Positions 2,982-37,702 of a stretch of DNA of 37,702 nt are shown one piece after another (within the stretch, counting starts at the first letter, position 1; every line of letters starts with the position of its first letter). A program made the position numbers and the translations under genes. Under the pieces are notes generated by a model. It saw only the letters and a list, made by a program, of their open reading frames with translations. It did not search any database and was not told the origin of the DNA. This DNA comes from Oscillospiraceae bacterium (lineage in GTDB: Bacteria > Bacillota > Clostridia > Oscillospirales > Ruminococcaceae): assembly GCA_017472965.1 (NCBI GenBank), contig JAFUNR010000043.1:1-37702 (forward strand), written 5' to 3'.

Positions 2982-3059
2982 ATATTGCATCCTTTCCGGC
3001 AAACGGCAGTTCTATATTTCTGCCGCGCCGCATATCGTTGAAAAAGAGGTAGCAAGAAT

Positions 3060-3089
3060 ATTGTACCACGATAGTTACCCTTTTGGCAA
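3060..3089 (-). promoter_or_regulatory. Sigma-A-type promoter of the membrane-protein gene
   Basis: On the minus strand TTGCCA and TACAAT are separated by 18 nt, about 80 nt upstream of the chosen start at 2981. Confidence 0.6.
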
Positions 3090-3162
3090 GATGCGGCACG
3101 GGCAAACTGCGGTCGCATCGGATAAAAACGGACAGGATGACCGGATGACGGAGGAAAAGAGG

Positions 3163-10747: not shown

Positions 10748-11296
10748 ATGAAAAAGTTTTCTGTCAAGACCATCGTCGCCATCGGTATTGGCGCTGCGCT
10801 GTTCTTCGTGCTGGGTCGTTTCGTGTCCATTCCCAGCCCTGTGCCCAACACCACCATCAACCTGCAGTACGGCCTGCTGGCCTTCATGAGCGTTGTTTAC
10901 GGCCCTGTCGCCGGCGCTCTGATCGGTCTGATCGGCCATGCTCTGATCGACTTCAGCTGGGGCTGGGGCATCTGGTGGAGCTGGGTCATCGCTTCCGCTG
11001 TGTACGGTGCTCTGGTGGGTCTGTCCGCCAAGGTGTTCAAGATGCAGGAGAATGAGCTGGGCAAGAAGGGCCTGATCAAGTTCAACATTGCGCAGGTCGT
11101 CGGCCATATCATCTGCTGGGGCGTTGTCGCTCCCGTGCTGGATATCGTGATCTACAGCGAGCCTCTGGAGAAGCTGTTCGCTCAGGGTCTGTTCGCCGGC
11201 ATCAGCAATGCTGTCACCACCGCCATCGTGGGCACCCTGCTGTGCATCGCCTACGCCGCTGCCAAGCCCAAGGCCGGCAGCCTGACCAAGGAGTAA
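10748..11296 (+). CDS. ECF transporter substrate-binding (S) component, UPF0397-like
   Basis: This 182-residue protein has five to six hydrophobic segments and the look of the UPF0397/ECF S-component family. Typical features are IGIGAALFFVLGRF in the first helix, the Pro-rich IPSPVPNTTINLQYGL, and YGPVAGALIGLIGHALIDFSW. S components capture a vitamin or other micronutrient at the membrane and dock on the shared energising module. The two following genes encode that module, so this looks like a dedicated group I ECF system. No riboswitch was seen in the leader, and the substrate is unknown. The start at 10748 follows a GAGAGAG purine tract. A hairpin terminator lies between this gene and the ATPase gene. 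Confidence 0.85.
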   Translation: MKKFSVKTIVAIGIGAALFFVLGRFVSIPSPVPNTTINLQYGLLAFMSVVYGPVAGALIGLIGHALIDFSWGWGIWWSWVIASAVYGALVGLSAKVFKMQENELGKKGLIKFNIAQVVGHIICWGVVAPVLDIVIYSEPLEKLFAQGLFAGISNAVTTAIVGTLLCIAYAAAKPKAGSLTKE

Positions 11297-11319
11297 TCTC
11301 TCCCCGCATACTAGAACAG

Positions 11320-11349
11320 AAGGCAGGCGGCAAACGCCTGCCTTTGTTT
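11320..11349 (+). terminator. Intercistronic hairpin (possible attenuator) within the ECF operon
   Basis: A perfect 10-bp stem (11320-11329 with 11335-11344) is followed by a short TTTGTTTC tract, 24 nt after the S-component stop and 16 nt before the next start. It may partly terminate transcripts so that the S component is made in excess, or protect the upstream mRNA. Confidence 0.6.
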
Positions 11350-11364
11350 CATAGGAGGCTTCTT

Positions 11365-13077: not shown

Positions 13078-13901
13078 CCAATCTTTTCAACTATATCGAG
13101 CGCTCCTCGCCCATTCACCGCATGACGGGTGCGGCCAAGCTGGCCTGTCTGCTGCTGTGGAGCTTTGCCGCCATGAGCGGCTTCCACACCCTGCTGCTGG
13201 CGGCGCTCACCGTGGCGGCAGTGGTGCTGTTCCGCATCTCCCGCATCAGGGTAAAGGATATCAGCTTCATGCTGGGCTTCACCTTCACCTTCATGATCGT
13301 GAACAATCTGCTGATTTATCTGATCAGCCCGGAGCACGGCGTTTCCATCTATGGCAGCCGCACCGTGCTGCTGGAGCTTTTCGGCCCGTATGTGATCACG
13401 GCAGAACAGCTTTTCTACCATCTGAATGTGGCGCTGAAGTACACCTGCACCATCCCCATCGTGCTGCTGTTCATCTGTACCACCGATCCCTCTGAATTTG
13501 CAGCCTCGCTCAACCGCATCGGTGTCAGCTACCGCATCAGCTACGCGGTGGCGCTGGCGCTACGCTACATTCCGGATGTGCAGCGTGCCTATACCGAGAT
13601 CGCCAATGCCCAGCAGGCCCGCGGTGTGGAGATGAGCAAAAAGGCCAGCCTGATCGAGCGGCTGAAAAATGTCAGCGCCATCCTGATCCCGCTGATCCTC
13701 TCCAGTATGGAGCGTATCGATACCATCTCCAACGCCATGGAGCTGCGCGGCTTCGGCAAGAATAAAAAGCGCAGCTGGTATTCGGCGCGGCCCTTCGGTG
13801 CGTGGGACTGGATATCCATGGCCGTGTGCGGCGCGCTGGTGGTGCTGTCTTTGGTGCTCACCGCGCTCAACGGCAGCCGGTTTTTCAATCCCTTTGTGTG
13901 A
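13074..13901 (+). CDS. ECF transporter transmembrane (T) component
   Basis: EcfT/CbiQ-family proteins couple ATP hydrolysis to toppling of the S component in the membrane. This 275-residue protein opens with the family-like IERSSPIHRMTGAAKL segment. It has four to five membrane helices and the two Ala-Arg-Gly-type coupling motifs: AQQARGVEM in the cytoplasmic loop and AMELRGFGKNKKR near the C-terminus. These Arg-containing helices dock on the ATPase. It overlaps the double-ATPase gene by ATGA and is followed by a terminator, so it closes the three-gene operon. Confidence 0.88.
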   Translation: MTNLFNYIERSSPIHRMTGAAKLACLLLWSFAAMSGFHTLLLAALTVAAVVLFRISRIRVKDISFMLGFTFTFMIVNNLLIYLISPEHGVSIYGSRTVLLELFGPYVITAEQLFYHLNVALKYTCTIPIVLLFICTTDPSEFAASLNRIGVSYRISYAVALALRYIPDVQRAYTEIANAQQARGVEMSKKASLIERLKNVSAILIPLILSSMERIDTISNAMELRGFGKNKKRSWYSARPFGAWDWISMAVCGALVVLSLVLTALNGSRFFNPFV

Positions 13902-22515: not shown

Positions 22516-22562
22516 GGGTAAAAAGCCGCATGGGCCGCCGTGCTGCATCAGGGGGGACTGTT

Positions 22563-23675
22563 ATGCCTTTTCAGCTGCCGGAGTACCGGCATCCGGATTT
22601 TTCACAGGAGCATTTTGCAAAAGCGCCCGATGCGGCGTGGAGCGCCGCACCGCAGGACGGCGTTGCGCCGGAGGGCTTTCACAGCACCTCCATGTATCCC
22701 GAATACTTCAAGGTGAACGGCGAATGGCGCCTTGCACAGGAGAGCCGCATGGATTCCTGTGTGGTGCTCGCCGCCGACGGCAGCCTTGCCGTGACGGAGC
22801 CGCGCAGCCTGAAAAAGGGGGATCGGGTCATCCTTGGCCGTACCGAGCGGGGCGAGGAGGGTATCTATCTGCATGCGGGCGGCTTTGCCGCAGCGGAACA
22901 GGCGATGGAGGATCAGTTTGTCTTTCGTCAGGGCCGCAGCCGGGAGACCTCCTATGCGCGGGATTACGATGAGCTGATCTCGCTGCTGCGCCACGAAAAG
23001 GAGTGCGGCAATGTGCTGTGGGTGATGGGCCCGGCCTTCGCCTTTGATGCCGGTGCCCGTCAGGCGATGCAGCTGCTGGTGGAAAACGGCTATGTGCACG
23101 GGGTGCTGGCCGGCAACGCCCTTGCCACCCATGATCTGGAGGCCGCGCTGCTGCATACGGCGCTGGGGCAGGATATCTACACCCAGCGCTCGCAGCCGAA
23201 CGGTCATTACAACCATCTGGATATCTGCAACCGGGTACGGGCCTGCGGCTCCATCCCGCAGTTTATCGAAGAATACGGACTGGATGACGGTATCATGTGC
23301 AGCTGCGTGAAAAAGGGCGTGCCCTTTGTGCTGGCGGGCTCCATCCGGGATGACGGCCCGCTGCCGGAGGTCATCGGCGATGTATACGCTGCCGCTGCCG
23401 CCATGCGCGGTCTGGTGAAAAAAGCCACCACCGTCATCTGTATGGCCACCATGCTGCACACCATTGCCACCGGCAATATGACCCCCTCCTTCCGCGTGCT
23501 GGCGGACGGTACCGTTCGTCCGCTGTACCTTTATGCCGTGGATGCGGATGAATTTGTGGTGAACAAGCTGCTGGATCGCGGCAGCCTGTGCGCCACAACG
23601 ATGGTGACCAATGTGCAGGATTTCATCACCCATGTCGCCCGCGGGCTGGGACTTGCCGCGCCGCAGCCACGCTGA
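22563..23675 (+). CDS. TIGR00300-type LOR/SDH protein (ArgZ/AgrE C-terminal, archaeal ornithine cyclodeaminase-like)
   Basis: This 370-residue protein matches the family named for its link to lysine-oxoglutarate reductase/saccharopine dehydrogenase. The N-terminal domain includes YPEYFKVNGEWRLAQESRMD, whose WxxxxxxRMD core is typical, and SLKKGDRVILGR. The C-terminal Rossmann-like part has VMGPAFAFDAGARQAM, VLAGNALATHDLEAALLHTA, the GSIRDDGPLPEV loop and the ATMLHTIATGNMTPS motif. Characterised relatives are archaeal NAD-dependent ornithine cyclodeaminase and the cyclodeaminase half of cyanobacterial ArgZ/AgrE; many bacterial members are uncharacterised. It lies 39 nt before a GH36 gene with no hairpin between, so the two appear cotranscribed. 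The start at 22563 follows a G-rich ribosome-binding site. Confidence 0.8.
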   Translation: MPFQLPEYRHPDFSQEHFAKAPDAAWSAAPQDGVAPEGFHSTSMYPEYFKVNGEWRLAQESRMDSCVVLAADGSLAVTEPRSLKKGDRVILGRTERGEEGIYLHAGGFAAAEQAMEDQFVFRQGRSRETSYARDYDELISLLRHEKECGNVLWVMGPAFAFDAGARQAMQLLVENGYVHGVLAGNALATHDLEAALLHTALGQDIYTQRSQPNGHYNHLDICNRVRACGSIPQFIEEYGLDDGIMCSCVKKGVPFVLAGSIRDDGPLPEVIGDVYAAAAAMRGLVKKATTVICMATMLHTIATGNMTPSFRVLADGTVRPLYLYAVDADEFVVNKLLDRGSLCATTMVTNVQDFITHVARGLGLAAPQPR

Positions 23676-25601: not shown

Positions 25602-28115
25602 TTATTTGTCCGCCGGACCGGCGGTGTCCGCGCCATCGCCGGTCAGACCCAGCGCGGCGGCGGCATCCTGCCGCATTTTGTATTTCAGGATCTTGCCCGC
25701 GGCGTTCATGGGGAAGCTGTCCACAAAGCGGATATAGCGGGGCACCTTGTGGCGTGCCATGCTGGCCTTGATGTAATCCGTCATCTCTTCGGCGGTGACC
25801 GAGCCGGGCTGCTTGAGGATGATGCAGGCCATGATCTCCTCGCCGTATTTTTTATCCGGCACACCGATGACCTGTACATCCTGCACTGCGGGATGGGTGT
25901 AGATGAATTCCTCGATCTCTTTGGGGTAGATGTTTTCGCCGCCGCGGATGATCATGTCCTTCAGCCGTCCGGTGATGCGATAGTTTCCGGCGGCATCGCG
26001 GCAGGCAAGGTCACCGGAATGCAGCCAGCCATCCGCATCCACCGTGTCCTTGGTGGCCTGCGGCATTTTGTAGTAGCCCTTCATGGTGTTGTAGCCCTTG
26101 GAGCAGAATTCGCCGTTGACGCCGTCAGGCACCTCGGCGCCGGTCTCGGGATCCACGATCTTGCAGCGCACATGGGGAAAAGCATAGCCTACCGTGTCGG
26201 TGCGCACATCCAGTGGATCCGTCCATGCGGACATGGTGGAGCCGGGGGCGGATTCCGTCTGGCCGTACACACTGACGATGCCGGTCATATTCATCTCGTC
26301 GGGGCGGGCGGCGCGGCGCATCAGCTCCGGCGGACAGCCTGCGCCGGCCATGATGCCGGTGCGCATATGGGAAAAATCGGTGGAGCGGTAGTCCGGGTGG
26401 TTGAACATGGCGATGAACATGGTGGGTACGCCGTTGAAGCAGGTGATCTTCTCCTGATTGATGCACGCCAGCGACGATTTGGCCGAGAAATACGGCAGCG
26501 GGCACAGCGTGGCACCGTGGGTCATGGAGGAGGTCATGGAGAGCACCATGCCGAAGCAGTGGAACATAGGCACCTGGATCATCATGCGGTCGGCGGTGGA
26601 AAGCCCCATGCGGTCGCCGATGCACTTGCCGTTGTTCACCACATTGTAGTGGGTGAGCATGACACCCTTGGGAAAGCCGGTGGTGCCGGAGGTGTACTGC
26701 ATATTGCACACATCGTTGGGTCTGACCGCCGCTGCCATACGGGCGATCTGCTCGGCGGGCACCAGCGTGCTGCGGGCCATGGCCTCGTCAAAGGTCAGAC
26801 AGCCCGGCTGACGGAAGCCCACCGTGACCACATTGCGCAGGAACGGCAGCCGCTTGCAGTGCAGCGGCTCGCCGGGCTTTGCTCCGGCGATCTCGGGGCA
26901 AAGCTCGTTGATGATGCCGCGGTAGTCGGAATCCAGACACGATTCGATCATCACCAGCGTGTGGGTGTCGGACTGGCGCAGCAGATACTCCGCCTCGTGA
27001 ATTTTATACGCGGTGTTCACCGTCACCAGCACCGCGCCGATTTTAGTGGCCGCCCAGAAGGTAATGTACCACGCGGGCACATTGGTGGCCCAGATGGCCA
27101 CCTTGCTGCCGGCCTTCACTCCCATGGACACCAGCGCCCGGGCAAAGCGATCCACATCCTGCCGGAATTCCTCGTAGGTGCGGGTGTAATCCAGCGTGGT
27201 GTATTTGAAGCAGTACTGGTCGGGGAATTCGTCCGCCACCCGGTCCAGCACCTGCGAGAAGGTCAGATCCAGCAGCTCGTCCTTTTTCCAGATGTACTGG
27301 CCGGTGCCGTCGTGATTGAAGTACAGGGTGCGCTTCATATCCCGGGTGGAGTGGAACCGGCTCATGTAGTTGACAAAGTAGGGGAAGATGACCTCGGGAT
27401 CCTGCAGATCCTCCAGCCATTCCGGCTTCCATTCCAGTGAGATGAAGCCGTCGTAGTTCACCGAGGAAAGCGCCCGCATCACATCGTCGATGGGCATGGA
27501 GCCTTCGCCGATCAGCTGGTAGACGCCCGCATCGTCGGAATCCCGCATATGCACATGGCAGACATAGCTGCCCAGATTCTTGATGGTGGCATCGCCGCTT
27601 TCGCCGTGGTCGCGGTAGGGATGGTGCACATCCCACAGCGCGGCCAGATGATCACTGGCAAAGTGATCCAGCAGGCTGCGCAGCCGGGCGGTATCGGCAT
27701 AGATGCCGCTGGTCTTGATCAGGATGCACACATCCAGCTCTTCTGCGGCGGCAAGCAGCTGCTCCAGTGCGGCGTATACCTGCGGCTCGTTATCCTGCAG
27801 GGCGCAGGCCACCACATAGGGCACCTGCATATTATGGGCGGTCTCCAGCAGCGGCAGCAGGGCGCCGGCCGCATCTTCGCCGGCGGAAAGATCGCAGGAG
27901 GTGTCGAAGCAGGGAATGGCCAGCTTCTTTTCGCGCAGCTGGCGCACGGTGGCGGTGGACTGGTATTTGTGGAACGGCCCGCCGCGTCCGGTCAGCTCCT
28001 GCTGCCGGTGCGGGTTGTACACCTCCACGCCGGCAAAGCCCATGTCCAGCGCGGTATCCAGCAGCTCGTCCCAGGCAAGTCCCGGCCAGCCGCGGGTGGA
28101 AAAGGAAAGCTTCAT
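25602..28115 (-). CDS. Fusion of a sugar-isomerase-like TIM barrel with an AMP-forming acyl-CoA ligase
   Basis: This 837-residue protein joins two normally separate families. Residues 1 to about 240 form an AP-endonuclease-2/sugar phosphate isomerase-epimerase type TIM barrel with DVHHPY, CHVHMRDSDD, IGEGSMPIDDV and FISLEW (E228). The position usually held by the first metal-binding Glu reads ILIKTSG, with Lys instead. Residues from about 275 form a complete acyl-CoA synthetase with YTSGTTGFPKG (about 470), VYGQTESAP, SGDLACRD, GRLKDMIIRGGENIYPKEIE and the C-terminal AAGKILKYKM lysine. The gene overlaps the LeuA-like gene by ATGA and lies under its Leu-type T-box. I infer activation of a carboxylic acid tied to leucine supply, with isovalerate the leading candidate. 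Confidence 0.85.
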   Translation of the reverse strand: MKLSFSTRGWPGLAWDELLDTALDMGFAGVEVYNPHRQQELTGRGGPFHKYQSTATVRQLREKKLAIPCFDTSCDLSAGEDAAGALLPLLETAHNMQVPYVVACALQDNEPQVYAALEQLLAAAEELDVCILIKTSGIYADTARLRSLLDHFASDHLAALWDVHHPYRDHGESGDATIKNLGSYVCHVHMRDSDDAGVYQLIGEGSMPIDDVMRALSSVNYDGFISLEWKPEWLEDLQDPEVIFPYFVNYMSRFHSTRDMKRTLYFNHDGTGQYIWKKDELLDLTFSQVLDRVADEFPDQYCFKYTTLDYTRTYEEFRQDVDRFARALVSMGVKAGSKVAIWATNVPAWYITFWAATKIGAVLVTVNTAYKIHEAEYLLRQSDTHTLVMIESCLDSDYRGIINELCPEIAGAKPGEPLHCKRLPFLRNVVTVGFRQPGCLTFDEAMARSTLVPAEQIARMAAAVRPNDVCNMQYTSGTTGFPKGVMLTHYNVVNNGKCIGDRMGLSTADRMMIQVPMFHCFGMVLSMTSSMTHGATLCPLPYFSAKSSLACINQEKITCFNGVPTMFIAMFNHPDYRSTDFSHMRTGIMAGAGCPPELMRRAARPDEMNMTGIVSVYGQTESAPGSTMSAWTDPLDVRTDTVGYAFPHVRCKIVDPETGAEVPDGVNGEFCSKGYNTMKGYYKMPQATKDTVDADGWLHSGDLACRDAAGNYRITGRLKDMIIRGGENIYPKEIEEFIYTHPAVQDVQVIGVPDKKYGEEIMACIILKQPGSVTAEEMTDYIKASMARHKVPRYIRFVDSFPMNAAGKILKYKMRQDAAAALGLTGDGADTAGPADK

Positions 28116-29521
28116 ACCTCATCCTCCTCGTAAACGATCTTGTTCAGAGCGCTCAGATAGGCATGGATGCCCGCGCCGATGATATCGGTGGAGATGCCCC
28201 GGCCGGAGTATACCTTGCCGCCGGAGCGCAGCTTGACCACGGTCTGACCCATGGCCTCGCGGCCTTCGGTGACGGCCTGCAGCTGGAAATCATCCAGCTC
28301 GTAGTGGCAGCCGGTGATCTTCTCGATGGCGAGGAAGGCCGCATCGATGGGGCCGTCGCCGATGGTCACGCCCTCCACAGGCACGCCGTTTTTCAGCAGC
28401 TTGATATGGGCGGTGGCGGAGATGGTGTTGCCGGAGGTGACCACATAGGTGTCCAGCTTGTAGGTGGAGGGCACCTGCATGGCGGCGGAGGCCACGATCA
28501 CATCCAGCTCTCTGGCGCTGACGCGGTCGCGCTTTTCGGCAATGCTGCGGAAGGCGTCGTATACGCGGACAGCATCCTCTTCCGAAAGATCGTAGCCAAG
28601 TGCCTGTACCGCCTTGGTCACGGCGGCGATGTCATCGTGGACAGTCAGCCAGATGCCGGGATCTTCGGTGGAAACGCCGCCGAACAGCGAGTTTTTATTC
28701 TTGCCGGACTGGCACATCCATGTGATCTGCTCCGCAATGCGGCTCAGCTGGGTTACGCGGATGCCGGTGGAAGCCCCCACGGCCTCGCCTTTGGCGGCCA
28801 GCAGCCGGGCAATGCTGGCGAGGTTGGCGCTGCCAAGCGGGTAGGCGGCGGTTTTCAGCTCGCCCGCGCCTGCGCCCGCGGCAGCCACGGCACAGGCATT
28901 GGCCATGGCCAGCGTATCCGCACAGGAAACGCCCAGCGTCACATCCTGCAGCGCCGGCAGCGCGGCATACAGCTGCTGAATGAACCGGGTGAATTCGGCC
29001 GGCAGCATGGTGCCGGCGGTATCGCACAGCGTGATGGTGGCGGCGCCCGCCTCAATGGCGGTCTGCACCGCCTGCTGCAGAAAGGCGGGCTCACTGCGGG
29101 TGGCATCATCCGCCACAAATTCCACATCCGCGCACAGCGCACGGCAGGCGGCGACTGTTTCGCGTACAGCGGTCAGCATGGCCTCCGGCTTTTTGTGGAA
29201 AAGATATTCCATCTGCACCGGGCTCACCGGGGCACACACCTGCAGGCGGGGATGTCTTGCCTGCTGCAGTGCGCTCCAGGTCTGCTGCACGCTCTGGGCG
29301 TTCAGCTGTACCGGCACGGCCACGGCACTGTCCTGCACGGCGGCGGCGATGGATTTGATGCGCAGCGCATCGATGCGGGCATTCCGGATGCCCTCCAGCT
29401 CGATGAGATCCACGCCCAGCCGATCCAGCAGCTTGGCAAGCTCGATCTTTTCTTTGAAGGAAAGGGCGAAGCCCTCGCCGGTCTGCTTCATCGTGACGTC
29501 GCTGATGCGGATGTGTTTCAT
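28112..29521 (-). CDS. 2-isopropylmalate-synthase-like protein lacking canonical metal ligands
   Basis: This 469-residue protein has the LeuA layout: a DRE-TIM catalytic barrel (1 to about 290), a linker, and a C-terminal LeuA-type regulatory domain (about 335-460, VASAAMQVPSTYKLDTYVV onward). Family landmarks align without gaps, for example EDATRS as DDATRS and PDTVG as CDTAG, but the active-site residues are changed. The TLRDGEQ motif reads TMKQTGE, so the essential Arg becomes Lys and the metal Asp becomes Gln. The HCHND metal site reads SCADT. GxGERAGN reads YPLGSANL. Classical acetyl-CoA condensation is therefore doubtful. The ATG at 29521 follows AAAGGAG, and a T-box with a CTG (Leu) specifier precedes it. 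The protein could sense leucine or have a changed chemistry. Confidence 0.85.
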   Translation of the reverse strand: MKHIRISDVTMKQTGEGFALSFKEKIELAKLLDRLGVDLIELEGIRNARIDALRIKSIAAAVQDSAVAVPVQLNAQSVQQTWSALQQARHPRLQVCAPVSPVQMEYLFHKKPEAMLTAVRETVAACRALCADVEFVADDATRSEPAFLQQAVQTAIEAGAATITLCDTAGTMLPAEFTRFIQQLYAALPALQDVTLGVSCADTLAMANACAVAAAGAGAGELKTAAYPLGSANLASIARLLAAKGEAVGASTGIRVTQLSRIAEQITWMCQSGKNKNSLFGGVSTEDPGIWLTVHDDIAAVTKAVQALGYDLSEEDAVRVYDAFRSIAEKRDRVSARELDVIVASAAMQVPSTYKLDTYVVTSGNTISATAHIKLLKNGVPVEGVTIGDGPIDAAFLAIEKITGCHYELDDFQLQAVTEGREAMGQTVVKLRSGGKVYSGRGISTDIIGAGIHAYLSALNKIVYEEDEV

Positions 29522-29550
29522 GGTGTTGCTCCTTTGGGTCGTGTTTTGAT

Positions 29551-29834
29551 AAAAAAATCCCCGAGACCGCAGCTGCTGCGGTCTCAGGGACGAAACTGTG
29601 TTCGCGGTACCACCCTGATTATCCTTCCCGAAGCGGAAGGATCCCTCTCGGACTCCAACAAGTCCCAGCCTGTAACGGAGGCATCCGGACCCCATTACTG
29701 GCTTGCGCGTTCACAGGGCCGACTCGGGAACCAGACCGCACCGATCCTCTGCGCCGGCTCACACCTGCCGCCGGCTCTCTGGGGCGTTGAAAGGGAACGG
29801 GTTTTCCGTCATTGTCGTTTATGTATATGGGTAT
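29551..29834 (-). promoter_or_regulatory. T-box leader reading Leu (CTG)
   Basis: Read on the minus strand, this is a full T-box riboswitch. Stem I starts with GAC/GTC (GAC at 29816-29814), an internal loop, and GGAA/TTCC. The specifier CTG (29734-29732) sits one purine away from that helix. The AG bulge and GGTGTGAG terminal loop follow the family. The antiterminator box GGGTGGTACCGCG (29615-29603) has UGGU, matching a tRNA ending ACCA. A terminator stem (29561-29572 with 29576-29587) with a T7 run ends the leader. Low charged tRNA-Leu should allow read-through into the LeuA-like and ligase genes. The base after the specifier is G rather than the usual A. Confidence 0.88.
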
Positions 29835-29841
29835 ATGTGGC

Positions 29842-29870
29842 ATTTAACCACAAACAGCGGCCTTTGTCAA
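29842..29870 (-). promoter_or_regulatory. Promoter of the Leu T-box operon
   Basis: On the minus strand a perfect TTGACA and TTAAAT are separated by 17 nt. Transcription would start near 29834, just before Stem I. Confidence 0.68.
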
Positions 29871-29955
29871 TAAAAAAACCGGCGAAAAACAGGATATTTG
29901 ATAAAATTTACAAAAGACAGTATGAAAAAAGTGTCAGACTTTGTCAAAAAAATAT

Positions 29956-29984
29956 TTGACATTTGGGCGCGGAAGTGATAAAGT
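29956..29984 (+). promoter_or_regulatory. Promoter of the Ile T-box operon
   Basis: A perfect TTGACA and a weaker TAAAGT are separated by 17 nt, a few bases before Stem I of the T-box leader. Confidence 0.65.
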
Positions 29985-29990
29985 TATGCC

Positions 29991-30262
29991 AATACGAAAA
30001 AGGCTTTGACGAAGACGGTACGGCAGCAAAGCTTTCAGAGAGCCGGCGGCAGGTGTGAGCCGGCAGCAATGTGCCAGTGTACCCATCACTTCCGAGCCGG
30101 AGCGCCGAGTGTTCCGATACGCCAGGTGTTCCCGTCTGCCCGCGTTAAGGGCTAGGGCTTACTGGAGCCTAAAGGGACGGCGGAATGCCGTAATTTGAGT
30201 GGTACCGCGGGTTAGATACTCGTCTCATGGATGAAGTTTTTCCATGAGGCGGGTATTTTTTG
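29991..30262 (+). promoter_or_regulatory. T-box leader reading Ile (ATC)
   Basis: Stem I has GGCT (30002-30005) paired with AGCC (30095-30098), and GAAG (30011-30014) paired with CTTC (30089-30092). The specifier ATC (30085-30087) is followed by the conserved A. The AG bulge and GGTGTGAG apical loop are present. The antiterminator element GAGTGGTACCGCGG is at 30197-30210, with UGGU for an ACCA tRNA end. A terminator (CTCATGG 30224-30230 with CCATGAG 30242-30248) is followed by a T run. Shortage of charged tRNA-Ile should switch on the downstream ligase. A 28-nt apical stretch is identical to the divergent Leu leader. Confidence 0.93.
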
Positions 30263-30286
30263 ATTTTCAGGAAAGGGATGAGCATT

Positions 30287-32554
30287 ATGACGAACAAATC
30301 CACTGTGAGCCAGCTGCAGGAGATTGCCCAGCGAATTCGCGAGATGCGCGAGATCCTCGGCTTCAGCATGCAGAAGATGGCGGATATGACCGAGGTCTCC
30401 GAGGAGGCCTACCGCCAGTATGAGACCGGCACGGTCGATCTGCCTTTTACATTCCTTCATAAATGCGCCAAGGCCTTCGGTCTGGAGCTGACCGTTCTGC
30501 TGGAGGGCCACAGCGGCAAGCTGTCCGGTTACACCGTCACCCGCAAGGGCAAGGGTCTTGTCACCGCCAGTGAGGACGGCATCACCATTCAGGATATGGC
30601 CCCCATGTTCCGCAAAAAGCTGGCCACGCCCTATTGGGTCACCTACCAGTATTCCGAAGAGCTGCAGGGGCTGCCCATCCACACCACCACCCACACCGGT
30701 CAGGAATTTGATCTGGTGCTCAAGGGTGCCATGCGCATCCGCGTGGGCGACCATGAGGAGGTGCTGCGCGAGGGTGACAGCATCTTCTACAAATCCTCCG
30801 TGCCCCACGGCATGATCGCCATCGAGGGGCAGGACTGTGTCTTCCTTGCTATGATCATGGCGAGCGATACAACGGATCAGCCGCTGTACATCGGCCAGTC
30901 CCGCAGGGAGCAGACCCGTCACCCGCTGCTGTGCGAGAAATTCGTGCACGCCACCGAGGATGAGCGCGGTGCGCTGACGGATATCCGTTTTGAGGATGCG
31001 GATACCTACAACTTCGCCTTTGATACGGTGGATGCCATTGCCCGCCGTGAGCCGGAAAAGCTGGCGATGATCCATGTGGCGGACGATCTCACCGAGCGCC
31101 GCTTCACCTTCAAGGATATCAAGGATGCCTCCTCTCAGTGCGCAAACTATTTCAAGTCGCTGGGCATCAAACGGGGCGACCGTGTCATGCTGGTGCTCAA
31201 GCGGCATTACCAGTTCTGGTTTGCCATTCTGGGCCTGCACAAGCTGGGTGCAGTGGCGATCCCCGCCACCAATCAGCTGGTGGAGCATGACTTTACCTAC
31301 CGCTTCAAGGCGGCGGAAGTCAGTGCCGTGCTGTGCACTGCCGACGGCGATACCGCCCGTCAGATCGAGCTGGCCGAAGCCGCCAGCGGCTGCAGCCTGA
31401 CAAAGATCTCCGTCAACGGCCGCCGTGACGGCTGGCATAATTTTGATGAGGAATACAGTCTGTTCAGCCGCCGCTATAACCGGGAGGACGATGCCCCCTG
31501 CGGCGACGATCCCATGCTGATGTTCTTCACCTCCGGCACCACCGGCTATCCCAAGATCGCCATGCACAGCTACAAGTATGCGCTGGGCCACTATGTCACC
31601 GCCAAATACTGGCATCTGGCCGAGCGCGACGGCCTGCACTTCACCATCTCCGAGACCGGCTGGGGCAAGGCGCTGTGGGGCAAGCTGTACGGCCAGTGGC
31701 TGTGCGAAAGCGCCGTCTTTACCTACGATTTCGACCGCTTCGATGCCGAAAAGATCCTGCCCATGTTCGCCAAATACAACATCACCACCTTCTGCGCACC
31801 GCCCACCATGTACCGGATGCTCATCAAGCAGGATCTGAGCCGCTTCGATCTGTCCAGCATCCACCACGCCACCACTGCGGGCGAGGCGCTCAACCCCGAG
31901 GTGTTCCATCAGTTTGAAAAGGCTACCGGTCTGCAGATCGCCGAGGGCTTCGGCCAGACCGAGATGACCCTTGGCATCGCCAACCTGCTCGGCACCATGC
32001 TCAAGCCCGGCGCCATGGGCAAGCCGGTGCCCGGCTACGGCATCGATCTGGTGGATACCGACGGCAATCCCGTGGAGGACGGTGTCAACGGCGAGATCGT
32101 CATCCGCACCGGCGATTCCCCCGCCTGCGGCGTGTTCCTCGGTTACTACCACGATCCCGAGCGCACCGCCGCCGTATGGCATGACGGCATCTATCACACC
32201 GGCGATCTTGCATGGCGTGATGAGGACGGCTACTACTGGTATGTGGGCCGTGCGGACGATGTCATCAAATCCTCCGGCTACCGTATCGGACCCTTTGAGA
32301 TCGAAAGCACCATTATGGAGCTGCCCTATGTTCTGGAGTGCGGTGTCTGCGCCGCGCCGGACGAGGTGCGCGGACAGGTGGTCAAGGCCTGCATCGTGCT
32401 GGTGCCGGGCACCGAGGGCACCGAAGAGCTGAAGAAGGAGATCCAGACCTACGTCAAGCACCACACCGCGCCCTACAAGTATCCGCGTATCGTGGAGTTC
32501 CGCACAGAGCTGCCCAAGACCATCAGCGGCAAGATCATCCGAAACAAACTGTAA
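30287..32554 (+). CDS. XRE-HTH / cupin / acyl-CoA ligase fusion, Ile T-box controlled
   Basis: This 755-residue protein has three parts. Residues 9-72 form an XRE-type helix-turn-helix (IREMREILGFSMQKMADMTE and so on). Residues about 115-190 form a cupin with a likely metal site, H136, E140 and H174 (HTGQE and VPHGM). Residues from about 220 form an AMP-forming acyl-CoA synthetase of the acetyl/medium-chain type, with FFTSGTTGYPK from residue 413, EGFGQTE, TGDLAWRDEDG, GRADDVIKSSGYRIGPFEIE and the C-terminal PKTISGKIIR with its catalytic Lys. The enzyme half looks fully active. HTH-cupin regulators are normally separate proteins, so this may be a ligase that also binds DNA or senses its ligand. 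Likely substrate by context: 2-methylbutyrate (inference). The start at 30287 follows GAAAGGG. Confidence 0.9.
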   Translation: MTNKSTVSQLQEIAQRIREMREILGFSMQKMADMTEVSEEAYRQYETGTVDLPFTFLHKCAKAFGLELTVLLEGHSGKLSGYTVTRKGKGLVTASEDGITIQDMAPMFRKKLATPYWVTYQYSEELQGLPIHTTTHTGQEFDLVLKGAMRIRVGDHEEVLREGDSIFYKSSVPHGMIAIEGQDCVFLAMIMASDTTDQPLYIGQSRREQTRHPLLCEKFVHATEDERGALTDIRFEDADTYNFAFDTVDAIARREPEKLAMIHVADDLTERRFTFKDIKDASSQCANYFKSLGIKRGDRVMLVLKRHYQFWFAILGLHKLGAVAIPATNQLVEHDFTYRFKAAEVSAVLCTADGDTARQIELAEAASGCSLTKISVNGRRDGWHNFDEEYSLFSRRYNREDDAPCGDDPMLMFFTSGTTGYPKIAMHSYKYALGHYVTAKYWHLAERDGLHFTISETGWGKALWGKLYGQWLCESAVFTYDFDRFDAEKILPMFAKYNITTFCAPPTMYRMLIKQDLSRFDLSSIHHATTAGEALNPEVFHQFEKATGLQIAEGFGQTEMTLGIANLLGTMLKPGAMGKPVPGYGIDLVDTDGNPVEDGVNGEIVIRTGDSPACGVFLGYYHDPERTAAVWHDGIYHTGDLAWRDEDGYYWYVGRADDVIKSSGYRIGPFEIESTIMELPYVLECGVCAAPDEVRGQVVKACIVLVPGTEGTEELKKEIQTYVKHHTAPYKYPRIVEFRTELPKTISGKIIRNKL

Positions 32555-32561
32555 AAATTTG

Positions 32562-32590
32562 TTGACAATTGCATAGAAAAATGTTAAGAT
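32562..32590 (+). promoter_or_regulatory. Promoter of the Val T-box operon
   Basis: A perfect TTGACA and TAAGAT are separated by 17 nt. The -35 begins only 8 nt after the stop codon of the Ile-controlled ligase, with no terminator between the units. Confidence 0.75.
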
Positions 32591-32596
32591 TCCAGT

Positions 32597-32872
32597 CAAA
32601 GGCATCGATGGAGAAAAGCCGCTGTGCCCTCTGTCCGCAGAGAAATGGCGTTTGGTGCAAGCCATGACAGAAGCAGCCCGCTTGTCACTCCGGAGCCGGG
32701 AGGAAGAAAGCTTCGGCAAATAGAACCTCCCCGCGTCAGCTGCGTCAGTGTTTAGGGCGTTATAGCGCCCAATGAGCGGCAGACCGCTGCAAGGCGGCTG
32801 CAATTTGAGTGGTACCGCGGGTTGTGAACACAGCTCGTCTCAAGGAATCTTTTCTTTGAGACGGGCTTTTTG
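32597..32872 (+). promoter_or_regulatory. T-box leader reading Val (GTC)
   Basis: Stem I has GGC (32601-32603) paired with GCC (32695-32697), and GGAG (32610-32613) paired with CTCC (32688-32691). The specifier GTC (32684-32686) is followed by the conserved A. The apical loop contains TTGGTGCAAGCC. The antiterminator element GAGTGGTACCGCGG is at 32807-32820, and the terminator (32833-32843 with 32856-32866) ends in T5. It should induce the second ligase and the downstream oxidoreductase genes when charged tRNA-Val is short. Confidence 0.92.
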
Positions 32873-32889
32873 CTTTTTCGAGGTGTGAT

Positions 32890-35181
32890 ATGGAACAACA
32901 GATGACTGGAATTACCTATAAAATCAAAGAGATGGCGCGCCGTATCCGCGAGCTGCGCGAGATTACCGGCCTGACGGTGGAGGAGATGGCTGCGCGCACG
33001 GATCTTTCCGTGGAGGAGTACATCCAGTGCGAGGAGGGCAACCGCAACCTGAGCATCGCCTTCCTGTATCGCTGCACCCTGAGCTTCGGCGTGGATATGG
33101 GCGATCTGCTGGAGGGCAGCAGCCCCAAGCTGCGCTCCTATGCGCTGACGCGCAAAGGTGAGGGCCAGCGCATCGAGGAGGCACACCATATGGTGGGCTT
33201 CAACCTTGCGGCGGATTTCCGTAACCGCATCGCCCTGCCGCTGTATATGGAGCTGAAATACCGTCCCGGCGCGGAGTATGAGGATATCGAGCTGGTCACC
33301 CATGAGGGACAGGAGTGCGATATCGTCATCAGCGGTCATATGCGCATCCAGATCGGCGGCCATACCGAGATCCTGCACGCCGGCGACTGTATCTATTACG
33401 ACAGCTCCACGCCCCACGGCATGATTGCGGTGGAAGGGGAGGACTGCTCTTTCTACGCCATCGTGCTGAGCAACTCCGCCGCCCGCACCGGCGAACAGGC
33501 CGCTGCCGTGGCCAAGCCCGCCGCAAAGCAGCAGGCCGCCGACCCCGAGAGCCGCATTTACAATGAATTCATCATCCCCACCGAGGATGCACAGGGCCGG
33601 CTTACCGCCATCGCCTTCAAAAACGAGGAAAAATTCAACTTTGCCTTTGATGTGGTGGATGCGCTGGGCACCGCCAAGCCCGACCGCCGCGCCATGCTCC
33701 ATGTGAGCAATGACGGCACCGAGCACACCTTTACCTTCCAGGATATGAAGCGGGAATCCGCCCGCGCCGCCAACTATTTCAAGGCCATGGGCATCAAGCG
33801 GGGCGACCGGGTCATGCTGGTGCTCAAACGGCATTACCAGTTCTGGTTTGCCATTCTGGGTCTGCACAAGCTGGGCGCGGTGGCCATCCCCGCCACCAAC
33901 CAGCTGATGGCCAAGGATTTTGCCTACCGCTTCCAGGCCGCCGATGTGCGCGCCGTGCTGTGCACCGCCGACGGCGAGACCGCCGCCGCCGTGGACGAGG
34001 CCGCCGCGCAGTGTCCGGGGCTTGCGCACCGCATCCTTGTGGGCGGCTCCCGCGAGGGCTGGCACGATTTCAACGAGGAATACACCCTGTACAGCAGCCA
34101 TTTCTTCCGCACGGAGGATTCCCCCTGCGGCAGCGATCCCATGCTGATGTTCTTCACCTCCGGCACCTCCGGCTATCCCAAGCTGGCGGCGCATAACTAC
34201 AAATATCCGCTGGGACATTTTATCACCGCCAAATACTGGCACTGCGTGCGGCCGGACGGTCTGCATCTGACCATCTCCGATACCGGCTGGGCAAAATCCC
34301 TGTGGGGCAAGCTGTACGGCCAGTGGCTGTGCGAGGCCGGTCTGTTCGTCTATGATTTCGACCGCTTCGATGCCGAAAAGATCCTGCCCATGTTCGCCAG
34401 ATACAATATCACCACCTTCTGTGCCCCGCCCACCATGTACCGGATGCTCATCAAGCAGGATCTGAGCCGCTTCGATCTGTCCAGCATCCAGCATGCCTCC
34501 ATCGCCGGCGAGGCGCTCAACCCCGAGGTGTTCCGCCAGTTCCAGAAGGCAACAGGGCTGGAGATCATGGAGGGCTTCGGCCAGTCCGAAAGCACGCTGA
34601 TCATCGGCAATCTGACCGGCGACAGCCACAAGATCGGTTCTATGGGCAAGCCGGTGCCGCTGTATAATGTGCAGCTGCTTTCCGCCGAGGGAGAGCCGGT
34701 GGATCCCGGCGAGACCGGCGAGATCTGCATTGATATTTCCAACGGTCTGCCCTGCGGCCTGAGCTATGCCTACGAGGGCAGCCCCGAAACCACCGCAAAG
34801 ACATGGCACGACGGCTTCTACCACACCGGGGATCTGGCGTGGAAGGACGAGGACGGCTTCTACTGGTATGTGGGCCGCACCGATGATGTCATCAAATCCT
34901 CCGGCTACCGCATCGGACCCTTCGAGATCGAAAACGTCATCATGGAGCTGCCCTATGTGCTGGAGTGCGGCGTTTCCGCCGCGCCGGACGAGGTGCGCGG
35001 TCAGGTGGTCAAGGCCAGCATCGTGCTGGTGAAGGATTTCAAGGGCACCGACGAGCTGCGCAAGCAGATCCAGGATTATGTCAAATCCCGTACTGCGCCC
35101 TATAAATATCCGCGCATCGTGGAATTCCGGGAAAGTCTGCCCAAGACCACCAGCGGCAAGATCATCCGCAAGCAGCTGTAA
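32890..35181 (+). CDS. XRE-HTH / cupin / acyl-CoA ligase fusion, Val T-box controlled
   Basis: This 763-residue paralogue of the upstream ligase has the same three-part layout. The XRE helix-turn-helix spans about residues 12-75 (IRELREITGLTVEEMAARTD). The cupin spans about 120-195 and has HEGQE and TPHGM metal motifs. An Ala/Gln-rich linker (about 197-222) leads to the AMP-forming acyl-CoA synthetase. Ligase motifs include FFTSGTSGYPK from residue 421, EGFGQSE, TGDLAWKDEDG, GRTDDVIKSSGYRIGPFEIE and PKTTSGKIIRKQL. Long blocks are identical to the upstream paralogue while the HTH half has diverged, which indicates duplication. It is the first gene of an operon with a MinD-like ATPase and VOR subunits. 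Inferred substrate: isobutyrate, whose CoA ester is the VOR partner of 2-oxoisovalerate. Confidence 0.9.
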   Translation: MEQQMTGITYKIKEMARRIRELREITGLTVEEMAARTDLSVEEYIQCEEGNRNLSIAFLYRCTLSFGVDMGDLLEGSSPKLRSYALTRKGEGQRIEEAHHMVGFNLAADFRNRIALPLYMELKYRPGAEYEDIELVTHEGQECDIVISGHMRIQIGGHTEILHAGDCIYYDSSTPHGMIAVEGEDCSFYAIVLSNSAARTGEQAAAVAKPAAKQQAADPESRIYNEFIIPTEDAQGRLTAIAFKNEEKFNFAFDVVDALGTAKPDRRAMLHVSNDGTEHTFTFQDMKRESARAANYFKAMGIKRGDRVMLVLKRHYQFWFAILGLHKLGAVAIPATNQLMAKDFAYRFQAADVRAVLCTADGETAAAVDEAAAQCPGLAHRILVGGSREGWHDFNEEYTLYSSHFFRTEDSPCGSDPMLMFFTSGTSGYPKLAAHNYKYPLGHFITAKYWHCVRPDGLHLTISDTGWAKSLWGKLYGQWLCEAGLFVYDFDRFDAEKILPMFARYNITTFCAPPTMYRMLIKQDLSRFDLSSIQHASIAGEALNPEVFRQFQKATGLEIMEGFGQSESTLIIGNLTGDSHKIGSMGKPVPLYNVQLLSAEGEPVDPGETGEICIDISNGLPCGLSYAYEGSPETTAKTWHDGFYHTGDLAWKDEDGFYWYVGRTDDVIKSSGYRIGPFEIENVIMELPYVLECGVSAAPDEVRGQVVKASIVLVKDFKGTDELRKQIQDYVKSRTAPYKYPRIVEFRESLPKTTSGKIIRKQL

Positions 35182-35190
35182 GGAGCACCC

Positions 35191-35895
35191 ATGGAGCACA
35201 AACGCTTAACGCTTTTCGCAGGGCATTACGGCAGCGGCAAGACCAATATCGCCGTGAACTATGCGCTGCTTCTGGCGGGAGAGGGCAGGGCCGTCTCCAT
35301 CGCCGATCTGGATATCGTCAACCCGTATTTCCGCACGGCGGACAGCGCCGCCGAGCTGGAGGCCGCCGGTGTGCGGCTGATCCGCCCGCAGTTCGCCAAT
35401 TCCAATGTGGATCTGCCCGCGCTGCCCGCCGAGGCCTACAGTCTGGTGCAGGATAAAAGCCGCTTCGGCGTGATGGATATCGGCGGTGACGACCGCGGCG
35501 CCTATGCGCTGGGCCGCTACGTGCCGTTTATCCGGCAGGAAAACGATTACCGCATGGTGTTCGTGGCCAATTTCTGCCGGCCGCTCACCCGTACCGCGCC
35601 CGAGGCACTGGAGGTGATGCGGGAGATCGAGGCTGCCTGCGGCCTTGCCTTCACCTGCATCGTCAACAACACCAATCTTGCCGGCATGACGGATGCCGCC
35701 ACGGTTCTCGATTCGCTGCCGCAGGTGCAGCAGCTTTCAGAGCTTTCTGGTCTGCCGGTCTGGCTGCACACCGCACAGCAGCAGGTGGCCGAAGCACTGA
35801 AGGGCCGGCTTGCGCCGGTGCTGCCCATGCAGCTGCAGAAAAAATACTTCGACCTGCCGTCCCATAAGCCGGAAAACCGGCCGCTGTGGGGTTAA
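35191..35895 (+). CDS. ParA/MinD/CobQ-type P-loop ATPase in the VOR operon
   Basis: This 234-residue protein opens with a Walker A loop, GHYGSGKTN, at residues 11-19. IADLDIVNPYFRT follows, a switch-like segment resembling the MinD/Mrp group, and then VMDIGGDDRGA as a Walker B-type region. Similar ATPases are used in metallocluster assembly, partitioning or cofactor insertion. It starts 9 nt after the ligase stop with AAGGAG upstream and is followed 27 nt later by a ferredoxin gene, so it is cotranscribed with the 2-oxoacid oxidoreductase. A role in maturing or regulating that iron-sulfur enzyme is possible but not shown. Confidence 0.75.
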   Translation: MEHKRLTLFAGHYGSGKTNIAVNYALLLAGEGRAVSIADLDIVNPYFRTADSAAELEAAGVRLIRPQFANSNVDLPALPAEAYSLVQDKSRFGVMDIGGDDRGAYALGRYVPFIRQENDYRMVFVANFCRPLTRTAPEALEVMREIEAACGLAFTCIVNNTNLAGMTDAATVLDSLPQVQQLSELSGLPVWLHTAQQQVAEALKGRLAPVLPMQLQKKYFDLPSHKPENRPLWG

Positions 35896-35922
35896 TGCAA
35901 TACTGTAAGGAGGGGATTCTCT

Positions 35923-36129
35923 ATGGCAAAAGTAACGTTTGAGACCGATCTTTGCAAGGGCTGCGGCCTGTGCGTGGATGCCTGTCCCAAGGGCATTCTG
36001 GCCATTGCTTCCGAAAAGATCAACAAAAAGGGCTATTCGCCCGCGTACATGACGGATCAGGAAAAATGCATCGGCTGCGCCTTCTGCGCGACCATGTGTC
36101 CGGATTGCATCATCACGGTGGAAAAGTAA
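35923..36129 (+). CDS. vorD: Two-[4Fe-4S] ferredoxin subunit of 2-oxoacid oxidoreductase (delta/VorD type)
   Basis: This 68-residue protein has two CxxCxxCxxxCP-type clusters: CKGCGLCVDACP near residue 11 and CIGCAFCATMCP near residue 49. It carries electrons between the thiamine-diphosphate enzyme and external ferredoxin. The order ferredoxin, alpha, beta is usual for VOR/KOR-type 2-oxoacid:ferredoxin oxidoreductases. A strong AAGGAGGGG precedes the ATG, and the alpha-subunit gene starts 11 nt downstream. The family assignment is firm; the VOR label depends on the neighbours. Confidence 0.88.
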   Translation: MAKVTFETDLCKGCGLCVDACPKGILAIASEKINKKGYSPAYMTDQEKCIGCAFCATMCPDCIITVEK

Positions 36130-36140
36130 GGAGGCGCATC

Positions 36141-37202
36141 ATGGCACAAAGAGTTCTGATGAAAGGCAACGAGGCCATCGCGGAAGCCGCGATCCGTGCC
36201 GGCTGCCGACACTATTTCGGCTATCCCATCACCCCGCAGACCGAGATCGCCGCATACATGGCAAAAAAGATGCCCAAGATCGGCGGTGTGTTCCTGCAGG
36301 CGGAAAGCGAGATCGCTTCCATCAATATGGTCTACGGCGCGGCTGCCGCCGGTATGCGCGTCATGACCTCCTCCTCCAGCCCGGGCATCTCGCTGAAAAC
36401 CGAGGGCCTGAGCTATATCGCCGGTTCCGATGTGCCTGCGCTGGTGGTCAATGTGCAGCGCGGCGGTCCGGGTCTGGGCGGCATCCAGCCCTCCCAGTCG
36501 GATTATTTTCAGGCGACCAAGGGCGGCGGTCACGGCGATTACCGCATGATCGTGCTGGCGCCCGCCTCCGTGCAGGAGATGGCCAGCCTCACCGTCAAGG
36601 GTTTCAATCTGGCGGATAAATACCTGATGACCGCCATGATCCTTGCCGACGGCACCATCGGTCAGATGATGGAGCCCATCTCCTTTGAGGATGTGGAGGT
36701 CGAGGAATACGAAAAGCCGTGGGCTCTCACCGGCACCAACGGCGAAAGAAAGCACAACATCGTCAACTCCCTGTATCTTAAGCCCGACGAGCTGGAGGCC
36801 AAGAACTTCAGCCGCTACGAGCGCTACAAGCTGGTCGAGGAAAACGAGACCATGTGGGAGGAATACATGATGGAGGATGCCGAGCTGTGTGTGGTGGCTT
36901 TCGGCATCGCCGCCCGTGTGGCTAAAAACGCGGTGGCCGCCGCCCGCAGCGAGGGCATCCGCGTGGGTCTGATCCGTCCCATCACCCTGTGGCCGTTCCC
37001 CTCCGCACCGCTGCTCAAGGCCGCAGAGCAGGTCAAGGGCTTTGTCAGCGTGGAGCTGAATATGGGCCAGATGATCGAGGATATCCGTCTTGCCACCCAG
37101 TGCAAGCGCCCCGTTTCCCTGTGCAACCGCTGCGGCGGTATGATCCCCAGCCCCGAAGAGGTGCTGGCTTCCATCCGCAAGGCGCAGAAAGGAGAGTTCT
37201 GA
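36141..37202 (+). CDS. vorB: 2-oxoacid:ferredoxin oxidoreductase alpha subunit, VorB-like
   Basis: This 353-residue subunit opens with [20 protein letters not shown] and has the family signature [29 protein letters not shown] and [20 protein letters not shown] follow, and a C-terminal transketolase-like domain contains [14 protein letters not shown]. It resembles the 3-methyl-2-oxobutanoate (2-oxoisovalerate) branch of the family, which interconverts branched 2-oxoacids with acyl-CoA, CO2 and reduced ferredoxin. A 2-oxoglutarate enzyme (KorA) is the main alternative and cannot be excluded by reading. The Val-type T-box and the ligase upstream favour the branched-chain role. The start at 36141 follows AAGGAGG. 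Confidence 0.85.
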
Positions 37203-37204
37203 TC

Positions 37205-37702
37205 ATGGCAGTTGTATTTCAAAAACCCAAATCTCTGACGGATGCGCCGTTCCACTACTGCCCCGGCTGCCCCCACGGCATCATCCACCGTCTGGTGGCC
37301 GAGGTGCTGGATGAGCTGGGCATCGAGGGCAAGGCCATCGGCGTTGCGCCGGTGGGCTGCGCCGTTATGGCGTACGATTATTTCGCCTGCGATATGATCG
37401 AGGCCGCCCACGGCCGTGCGCCCGCAGTGGCCACCGGCATCAAGCGCTGCCGTCCCGAAAATATCGTCTTTACTTATCAGGGCGACGGCGATCTGGCCTC
37501 CATCGGTATGGCCGAGACCGTCCACAGCGCCGCCCGCAACGAAAACATCACCGTCATCTTCGTCAACAATGCCATCTACGGCATGACCGGCGGCCAGATG
37601 GCCCCCACCAGCCTCCCCGGCCAGGTGACCCAGACCAGCCCCTATGGCCGCGACGTCAACCACTGCGGCTGGCCCATCAAGGTCTGCGAGCTGCTGGCTA
37701 CC
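37205..37702 (+). CDS. vorA: 2-oxoacid:ferredoxin oxidoreductase beta (thiamine diphosphate) subunit, 3' end outside window
   Basis: The open frame from the ATG at 37205 runs 166 codons to the window edge. It starts 2 nt after the alpha stop, and GAAAGGAG lies within the end of the alpha gene. [14 protein letters not shown] matches the conserved N-terminal Cys region. [11 protein letters not shown] through [12 protein letters not shown] is the thiamine-diphosphate motif (GDG to NN). The [15 protein letters not shown] segment is typical of VOR/KOR beta subunits. It completes the catalytic core with the alpha subunit. A gamma subunit gene is expected downstream but is not in the window. Confidence 0.88.

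Follow-up and report, generated by a model that had tools for sequence, protein, structure and literature searches.

The contig JAFUNR010000043.1 of a gut bacterium of the Oscillospiraceae (assembly GCA_017472965.1) carries, from position 25,602 to its end at position 37,702, a cluster of T-box leaders, AMP-forming acyl-coenzyme A (CoA) ligase genes and genes for a 2-oxoacid:ferredoxin oxidoreductase of the 2-oxoisovalerate type (VOR). Very probably, this cluster encodes a pathway of reductive salvage that supplies branched-chain amino acids (BCAAs) in place of a de novo route that has apparently been lost. The window, i.e. the whole stretch of 37,702 nucleotides that was analysed, is one entire contig of a 2.9 Mb draft genome that is 85% complete. 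A first-pass annotation made from the sequence alone had proposed salvage of leucine, isoleucine and valine from branched acids. This proposal is now strengthened by a match between T-box specifier and ligase clade in 109 of 109 cases, by the presence of VOR and of the aminotransferase gene ilvE in the cluster, by the loss of ilvC and ilvD, and by the preference of the closest solved ligase, 3ETC, for 2-methylbutyrate.

According to the passages of PMC7356843 drawn upon here, rumen anaerobes carboxylate isovalerate, 2-methylbutyrate and isobutyrate to leucine, isoleucine and valine, conversions described from 1962 on, and branched acids are growth factors for ruminococci. In the proposed mechanism, uncharged tRNA-Leu, tRNA-Ile or tRNA-Val would cause the matching T-box to permit read-through. 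The ligase of that unit would then turn the cognate branched acid into its CoA ester at the expense of ATP and CoA, and the one shared VOR would use reduced ferredoxin and CO2 to carboxylate this ester to the 2-oxoacid. A branched-chain aminotransferase, the gene of which lies in the cluster in 43 of 80 related loci, would complete the amino acid. Regulatory-looking protein parts may add a further layer, namely a catalytically dead LeuA with its LeuA_dimer domain in the Leu unit and helix-turn-helix (HTH)-cupin modules on the Ile and Val ligases.

The proposed overall conversion is the same as in the rumen studies of Allison and co-workers (from 1962), which reportedly covered the physiology without genes, whereas the cluster adds the genes, candidate enzymes among their products and control by RNA. 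In the openly licensed PMC literature that was searched, no description of this gene system was found among the matches listed.

T-box specifiers and ligase clades

The T-box leaders of the Leu unit (29583..29821, minus strand) and the Ile unit (29997..30230, plus strand) diverge from each other at a distance of 176 bases, and both exceed the gathering threshold of the Rfam T-box family RF00230 (93 bits) with 101.1 and 98.3 bits, respectively. A third leader precedes the Val unit (32596..32845, plus strand). The specifiers were read with a script that locates the stem I GAG, takes the codon a set distance ahead of it and is blind both to the meaning of the codon and to the ligase tree. It returned CTG (29734-29732), ATC (30085-30087) and GTC (32684-32686), the very codons named in the first-pass annotation. 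As a control, the script was applied to the leaders of eight aminoacyl-tRNA synthetase genes in this genome; it called seven, and the amino acid was right in 7/7 (pheS TTC, tyrS TAC, valS GTC, metG ATG on two contigs, alaS GCC, thrS ACC). The ileS leader was left uncalled and shows ATC when read by eye.

Relatives of the cluster were found by a genome-contig scan and kept as loci. Many of the results rest on the best 80 of at least 582 relatives, so the locus set is biased to close relatives; ruminant guts are named in many of the 80 titles. The window and these loci yielded 136 ligases scoring over 700 bits, ligases under that score being excluded. Their tree, inferred by a quick method, divides into 81 Ile-type and 55 Val-type sequences, and the split has an SH-aLRT support of 100. 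All 109 specifiers read by the script match the clade of their ligase: 73 ATC codons belong to the Ile clade, 36 Val codons (GTA 33, GTC 3) to the Val clade, and none is crossed. Three misreads of the script were corrected by eye, CAA to GTC in the Val-type cases of L021 and L038 and GAG to ATC in the Ile-type case of L039; these readings stay outside the 109. For the LeuA-like gene that follows the Leu T-box, 40 sequences were available (window included; frames of at most 1,000 bases excluded), and 26 of them have a Leu codon (CTG 15, CTC 10, CTT 1). The first-pass annotation had come with the suggestion to look for co-occurrence in related genomes, and indeed T-boxes, ligases and VOR cluster together there: next to the specifier-clade match, VorB is encoded in 59 of the 80 loci.

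In leader architecture and specifier logic the cluster resembles the genes for amino acid biosynthesis and for aminoacyl-tRNA synthetases that are under T-box control. In contrast to these known targets, the genes controlled here would belong to a carboxylation salvage route, with separate specifiers on parallel ligases. The main text of the T-box survey PMC2494555 contains none of the terms "ferredoxin", "CoA ligase" and "acyl-CoA".

Ligases, VOR operon and the de novo pathway

All three ligases match the Pfam AMP-binding family (E 2e-90 to 4e-57). Those of the Ile unit (30287..32554, plus strand) and the Val unit (32890..35181, plus strand) carry an amino-terminal HTH-cupin module, whereas in the Leu unit (25602..28115, minus strand) the fusion partner of the ligase is a xylose-isomerase-like barrel and the ligase itself is of a different subfamily, as judged from Pfam and NCBIfam. 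The start codon of the Ile ligase (ATG at 30287) is our choice; a TTG (30260) and an ATG (30278) lie in frame upstream. As predicted substrates we propose isovalerate for the Leu ligase, 2-methylbutyrate for the Ile ligase and isobutyrate for the Val ligase.

Among solved structures, 3ETC is the closest relative of the Ile ligase (615 bits); the match spans query residues 242-761, i.e. the ligase part, and the matched chain has no HTH-cupin module. To our knowledge, neither a T-box nor VOR has been linked to this enzyme, which is MacsMa of Methanosarcina acetivorans. In the sections of PMC10455477 consulted, MacsMa is described as preferring 2-methylbutyrate and as forming acyl-AMP from many acids (C3 to C8), and its key pocket residues are a Gly replacing Trp416 of acetyl-CoA synthetase (Acs) and an alternate Trp259. 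The Trp of the motif TAKYW, which in the alignment lies opposite residue 260 of the 3ETC chain (taken as Trp259), is kept in 136/136 ligases, so that the pocket Trp is shared with MacsMa. Equally invariant (136/136) is the Gly of EGFGQTE, which we take to correspond to the Acs Trp416 position. At the chosen cut-offs, 21 positions separate the Ile and Val groups, and one of these is invariant in both. This is the variable residue of TGW[G/A]K, a Gly in 81/81 Ile-type ligases, including the window's, and in MacsMa, and an Ala in 55/55 Val-type ligases, again including that of the window. In acetyl-CoA synthetase this position lines the acyl pocket, and Ala would therefore suit the smaller isobutyrate.

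Among NCBIfam families, MbcS (NF047394) is the best match of both the Ile and the Val ligase. The enzyme from Staphylococcus aureus serves branched fatty acid synthesis and uses 2-methylbutyrate and isobutyrate, yet hardly isovalerate, according to the portion of PMC10026030 considered here. A separate ligase class in the Leu unit therefore makes sense.

Downstream of the Val ligase, and on the same strand, lie the genes for a ParA/NUBPL-like P-loop NTPase (35191..35895; weak Pfam match below the cut-off, conserved in the operon), the two-cluster ferredoxin subunit VorD (35923..36129; the best NCBIfam models are delta subunits of 2-oxoacid oxidoreductases, below their cut-offs), the alpha subunit VorB (36141..37202; PRK07119, 544.7 bits, cut-off 399) and the beta subunit VorA (37205..37702; NCBIfam beta subunits, partial and below cut-offs). 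The operon is interrupted by the contig end, so that VorA is incomplete and the gamma subunit VorC is absent from the window. The VorB score bears out the VOR-type enzyme that the first-pass annotation had assigned to the Val unit. When the 80 loci (window excluded) were searched with profiles, VorB was detected in 59, VorA in 56, VorC in 53 and the ParA-like protein in 62, as well as the barrel-ligase in 41 and the LeuA-like gene in 39. With the exception of L059, VOR is on the ligase strand in every VOR-positive locus. As in a 2-oxoisovalerate:ferredoxin oxidoreductase, VorD, VorB and VorA are adjacent; what sets them apart from VOR elsewhere is their association with acid-activating ligases, often ilvE, and T-box control.

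An ilvE-type aminotransferase gene is present in 43/80 loci, 42 of which also have VorB. Where VorC is on the same strand and enough sequence follows (47 loci), ilvE comes directly next in 31 and elsewhere in the locus in six. One representative was scored as a branched-chain aminotransferase with 436 bits against a cut-off of 307.

No match to ilvC, ilvD or leuB was found in the 85% complete draft genome of the window. Among 61 genomes searched, ilvC and ilvD each exceed their cut-off in 37. Both genes are lacking in 14/17 genomes with HTH-cupin plus ligase, compared with 8/44 others (p 6e-6); for genomes that are at least 90% complete the figures are 9/12 carriers and 5/35 others. Carriers were defined by a ligase match that began no later than residue 12, including matches that run across a stop (5/17, possibly adjacent genes), and the table was entered by hand, with ilvC scored as present in G012, where it is in two fragments, and as lacking in G055 (25 bits). 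A second draw comprised 107 genomes: ilvD was missing from 32/38 with the fused frame versus 25/69 without it, and, among the 81 genomes new in that draw, from 23/28 versus 20/53 (p 2e-4). Here, "fused" denotes an open frame of at least 740 residues holding an HTH-cupin match, the ligase half being outside that search, and ilvD-like matches below the cut-off (G078, G107) were scored as lacking. An assembly gap as the sole cause of the missing ilvC and ilvD is unlikely, since the same-genus genome G001 and the 9/12 carriers with at least 90% completeness also lack both.

Of the 14 carriers without ilvC and ilvD, 11 retain ilvE, and the remaining three are 85-86% complete. The eight non-carriers that lack both genes are divided: G010, G018, G035 and G041 have an ilvE match, while none was found in G004, G005 and G053 (97-100% complete) or in G040 (55%). 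Keeping the aminotransferase while losing the preceding steps is what salvage predicts, yet it is not unique to carriers.

Points against the salvage pathway and alternative explanations

Several findings weigh against a salvage pathway of this design. The first group concerns the leaders. With 74.2 bits the Val leader of the window stays below the RF00230 gathering threshold, although a local search finds it with E 3e-16 at full length over 219 positions. None of the Val leaders tested (window and five loci) exceeds that threshold: when 6/80 loci were searched at gathering, 8/15 cluster leaders read by the script were confirmed, i.e. Leu 4/4, Ile 4/6 and Val 0/5. An E-value threshold applied to L047, L055 and L068 recovered 7/7 script-read cluster leaders at E 2e-15 or better, with 79-84 bits for the Val leaders. 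These are therefore real T-boxes that score weakly on the Rfam model, and we still treat the window's Val leader likewise as a weak-scoring T-box of the RF00230 family. That it is a recent duplicate of the Ile T-box is rejected, because it shares 66-70% identity with the Val-ligase leaders of four relatives and 54% with the Ile leader of the window.

Moreover, 24/136 ligases have no readable T-box (20 without antiterminator, four without specifier; some at contig ends), and 14/40 LeuA-like genes have either no readable T-box (11) or another codon (AGC, ACA and GAA). Within the window's own clade of 15 Val ligases, only that of the window has a Val T-box called by the script; its 14 nearest relatives comprise L021, with a GTC seen by eye, L028, in which nothing beyond a weak antiterminator match shows, and 12 without a Val T-box. 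In such relatives the Ile transcript probably includes the Val ligase gene as well. The idea of one T-box per ligase is thus not universal.

The second group of findings concerns the enzymes and the gene losses. The Ile and Val ligases reach only 434 and 417 bits with the MbcS model, far from its cut-off of 850. Ten of the 47 loci with room lack ilvE within the available stretch, and seven of these are among the window's nearest relatives; a search of the window's own assembly, in which the VOR operon is incomplete at the contig end, gave no ilvE match either. Since no ilvE shows in the available stretch of those seven relatives, the aminotransferase is unproven for the window itself. The gene ilvD is kept in 6/38 fused-gene genomes, so the cluster is not always a replacement, and the p values for co-loss assume an independence that does not hold for these genomes (no phylogeny correction). 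Finally, in two annotated Bacteroidota records a cupin/ligase pair adjoins proline or arginine genes, with VOR not nearby, which implies that the cupin-ligase pairing also exists outside the salvage pathway.

A different explanation would be that the ligases supply acyl-CoA primers to FabH for branched-chain membrane lipids, the T-boxes responding because amino acids usually are the source of such starters. MbcS, the best family match, works in this way in Staphylococcus (PMC10026030, as far as covered here). Against this function stand the presence of VOR and ilvE in the cluster and the absence of ilvC and ilvD from most carriers; three tRNA-specific switches would also be an odd control for a lipid primer. 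Although both uses may coexist, we consider lipid priming as the principal role improbable. Even less probable is that the ligases act on other acids (e.g. propionate, phenylacetate or longer ones) and that the T-boxes were recruited for another purpose. The broad range of MacsMa in acyl-AMP formation (C3 to C8; PMC10455477, in the part considered) and the Bacteroidota pair without VOR neighbours in two annotated records would agree with such a scenario, but the specifier tracks the ligase clade in every script-read Ile or Val case (109/109), and the neighbours are VOR and a BCAA aminotransferase. Oxidative breakdown, in which VOR would oxidise BCAA-derived 2-oxoacids and the ligases would free the acids with energy gain, is the least probable of all: VOR is commonly described in the oxidative direction, but AMP-forming ligases normally run toward the CoA ester, induction by uncharged tRNA would mean that amino acids are broken down just when they are scarce, and most carriers lack ilvC and ilvD.

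The salvage pathway can be extended to a wider picture, which is tentative when all of its parts are taken jointly. In Oscillospirales of gut and rumen, de novo BCAA synthesis may have given way to a reductive route gated by T-boxes, which would make these bacteria dependent on branched short-chain acids that other microbes release. The specificity of the Ile and Val ligases would lie largely in one pocket residue (Gly/Ala). Proteins would add a second level of control to each branch: the dead LeuA would be a leucine sensor for the isovalerate ligase, and the HTH-cupin ligases would be "trigger enzymes" that perhaps bind DNA.

For a growth requirement recognised in rumen bacteria since the 1960s, the cluster supplies candidate genes, along with a residue that may switch the substrate and three RNA switches, each of which can be tested separately. 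Branched volatile acids are used as a feed additive for ruminants. If the salvage pathway is real, the dependence of gut bacteria on branched acids could be predicted from genome sequences, a link in microbiome cross-feeding would be gained, and such genomes should not be scored as plain BCAA auxotrophs.

The LeuA-like protein, fused modules and further features

The first-pass annotation had placed three T-boxes in front of three AMP-forming ligases. At the level of transcription units this is correct, but the Leu T-box is not directly followed by its ligase, because a LeuA-like gene (28112..29521, minus strand) intervenes. Besides this gene, the earlier account of the units had left out the fused domains and ilvE. 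The start codon of the LeuA-like gene is again our choice, as the in-frame upstream ATG at 29695 falls within the leader, and the downstream barrel-ligase gene overlaps it.

Pfam assigns an HMGL barrel and a LeuA_dimer domain to the LeuA-like protein, so that both domains of 2-isopropylmalate synthase (LeuA) are recognisable, and the barrel aligns along the synthases 3rmj and 3ewb. All four residues that we take to be catalytic or metal-binding in LeuA, i.e. the Arg, the metal Asp and the His-x-His pair, are lost in the window protein. They are also lost in most relatives, where across 45 rows the Arg is kept in five, the Asp in one, the first His in one and the second His in two. The best NCBIfam LeuA model gives 306 bits against a cut-off of 532, whereas the regulatory LeuA_dimer domain is matched with 103.8 bits over positions 2-130 of 131. 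In 39 rows the mean identity is 68% for LeuA_dimer and 45% for the barrel. An active synthase is rejected because of the loss of the catalytic and metal residues. Since the catalytic site is dead and the LeuA_dimer domain is better conserved, the protein is probably a leucine-sensing pseudoenzyme, perhaps acting on the neighbouring ligase, and it could represent a new kind of leucine sensor. Likewise, it is doubtful that the barrel of the Leu ligase is an active isomerase, as 25/33 rows have a Lys at the position that we assign as the expected first metal Glu.

In the HTH-cupin modules, the His, Glu and His that are typical metal ligands of cupins are kept in 136/136 sequences. An anti-phage role was considered and set aside, the HTH matches being weak only. 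In a search for named relatives on plasmids, 117 records matched, and four from Bacteroidota cover at least 80% of the query at about 45% identity. Of the three that were examined, two have gene tables; in both, separate neighbouring genes encode the ligase and a cupin protein of 184 residues, and no VOR was found nearby. The third is unannotated.

Each unit of the window has a promoter-like site from a consensus scan. That of the Leu unit (29919..29947, minus strand) reads TTGACA-17 nt-CATACT and is a consensus match only; TTGACA-type sites precede the Ile unit (29956..29984, plus strand) and the Val unit (32562..32590, plus strand). Intrinsic terminators, each with a 16-pair stem and a T run, were called by the scan for the Leu leader (29557..29591, minus strand) and the Val leader (32832..32867, plus strand), and a terminator hairpin of the Ile leader is visible by eye only. 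The ParA/NUBPL-like NTPase, a regular member of the VOR operon, may deliver metal or Fe-S clusters.

Further riboswitches and T-boxes were noticed in passing. Tetrahydrofolate and thiamine pyrophosphate riboswitches occur near the salvage cluster in two relatives (L038 3248-3348 and L047 1431-1550). In the genome of the window, L010 has a T-box with the script-read specifier TGG (Trp) and L005 one with TTC (Phe), uncalled by the script and read by eye; contigs C24 and C46 host the two. Both precede a protein resembling an ABC-transporter substrate-binding protein, with the family checked for L010 only, and perhaps serve aromatic amino acid uptake. L002 (C24) has a GCA (Ala) T-box before genes that were named by eye as an Lrp/AsnC-like regulator and an aminotransferase. 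L008 and L009 (C50 and C56) each comprise the metG T-box with an identical leader and the gene start near a contig end, probably an assembly duplicate. A T-box-like leader with CCA (Pro) at 1501-1720 of L014 (C50) scores 60.7 bits, below gathering, and stands before a glycoside hydrolase 123-type protein (1724-3220). This target is unexpected, and the leader is possibly a chance match or a decayed T-box.

Elsewhere in the window, 22530-23675 encodes a putative nickel-pincer-nucleotide-dependent ornithine cyclodeaminase (NF052526, 610 bits against a cut-off of 440), and 11242-13901 an ABC ATPase with DUF3744 together with a CbiQ-type protein, resembling an energy-coupling factor (ECF) transporter for vitamins or metals.

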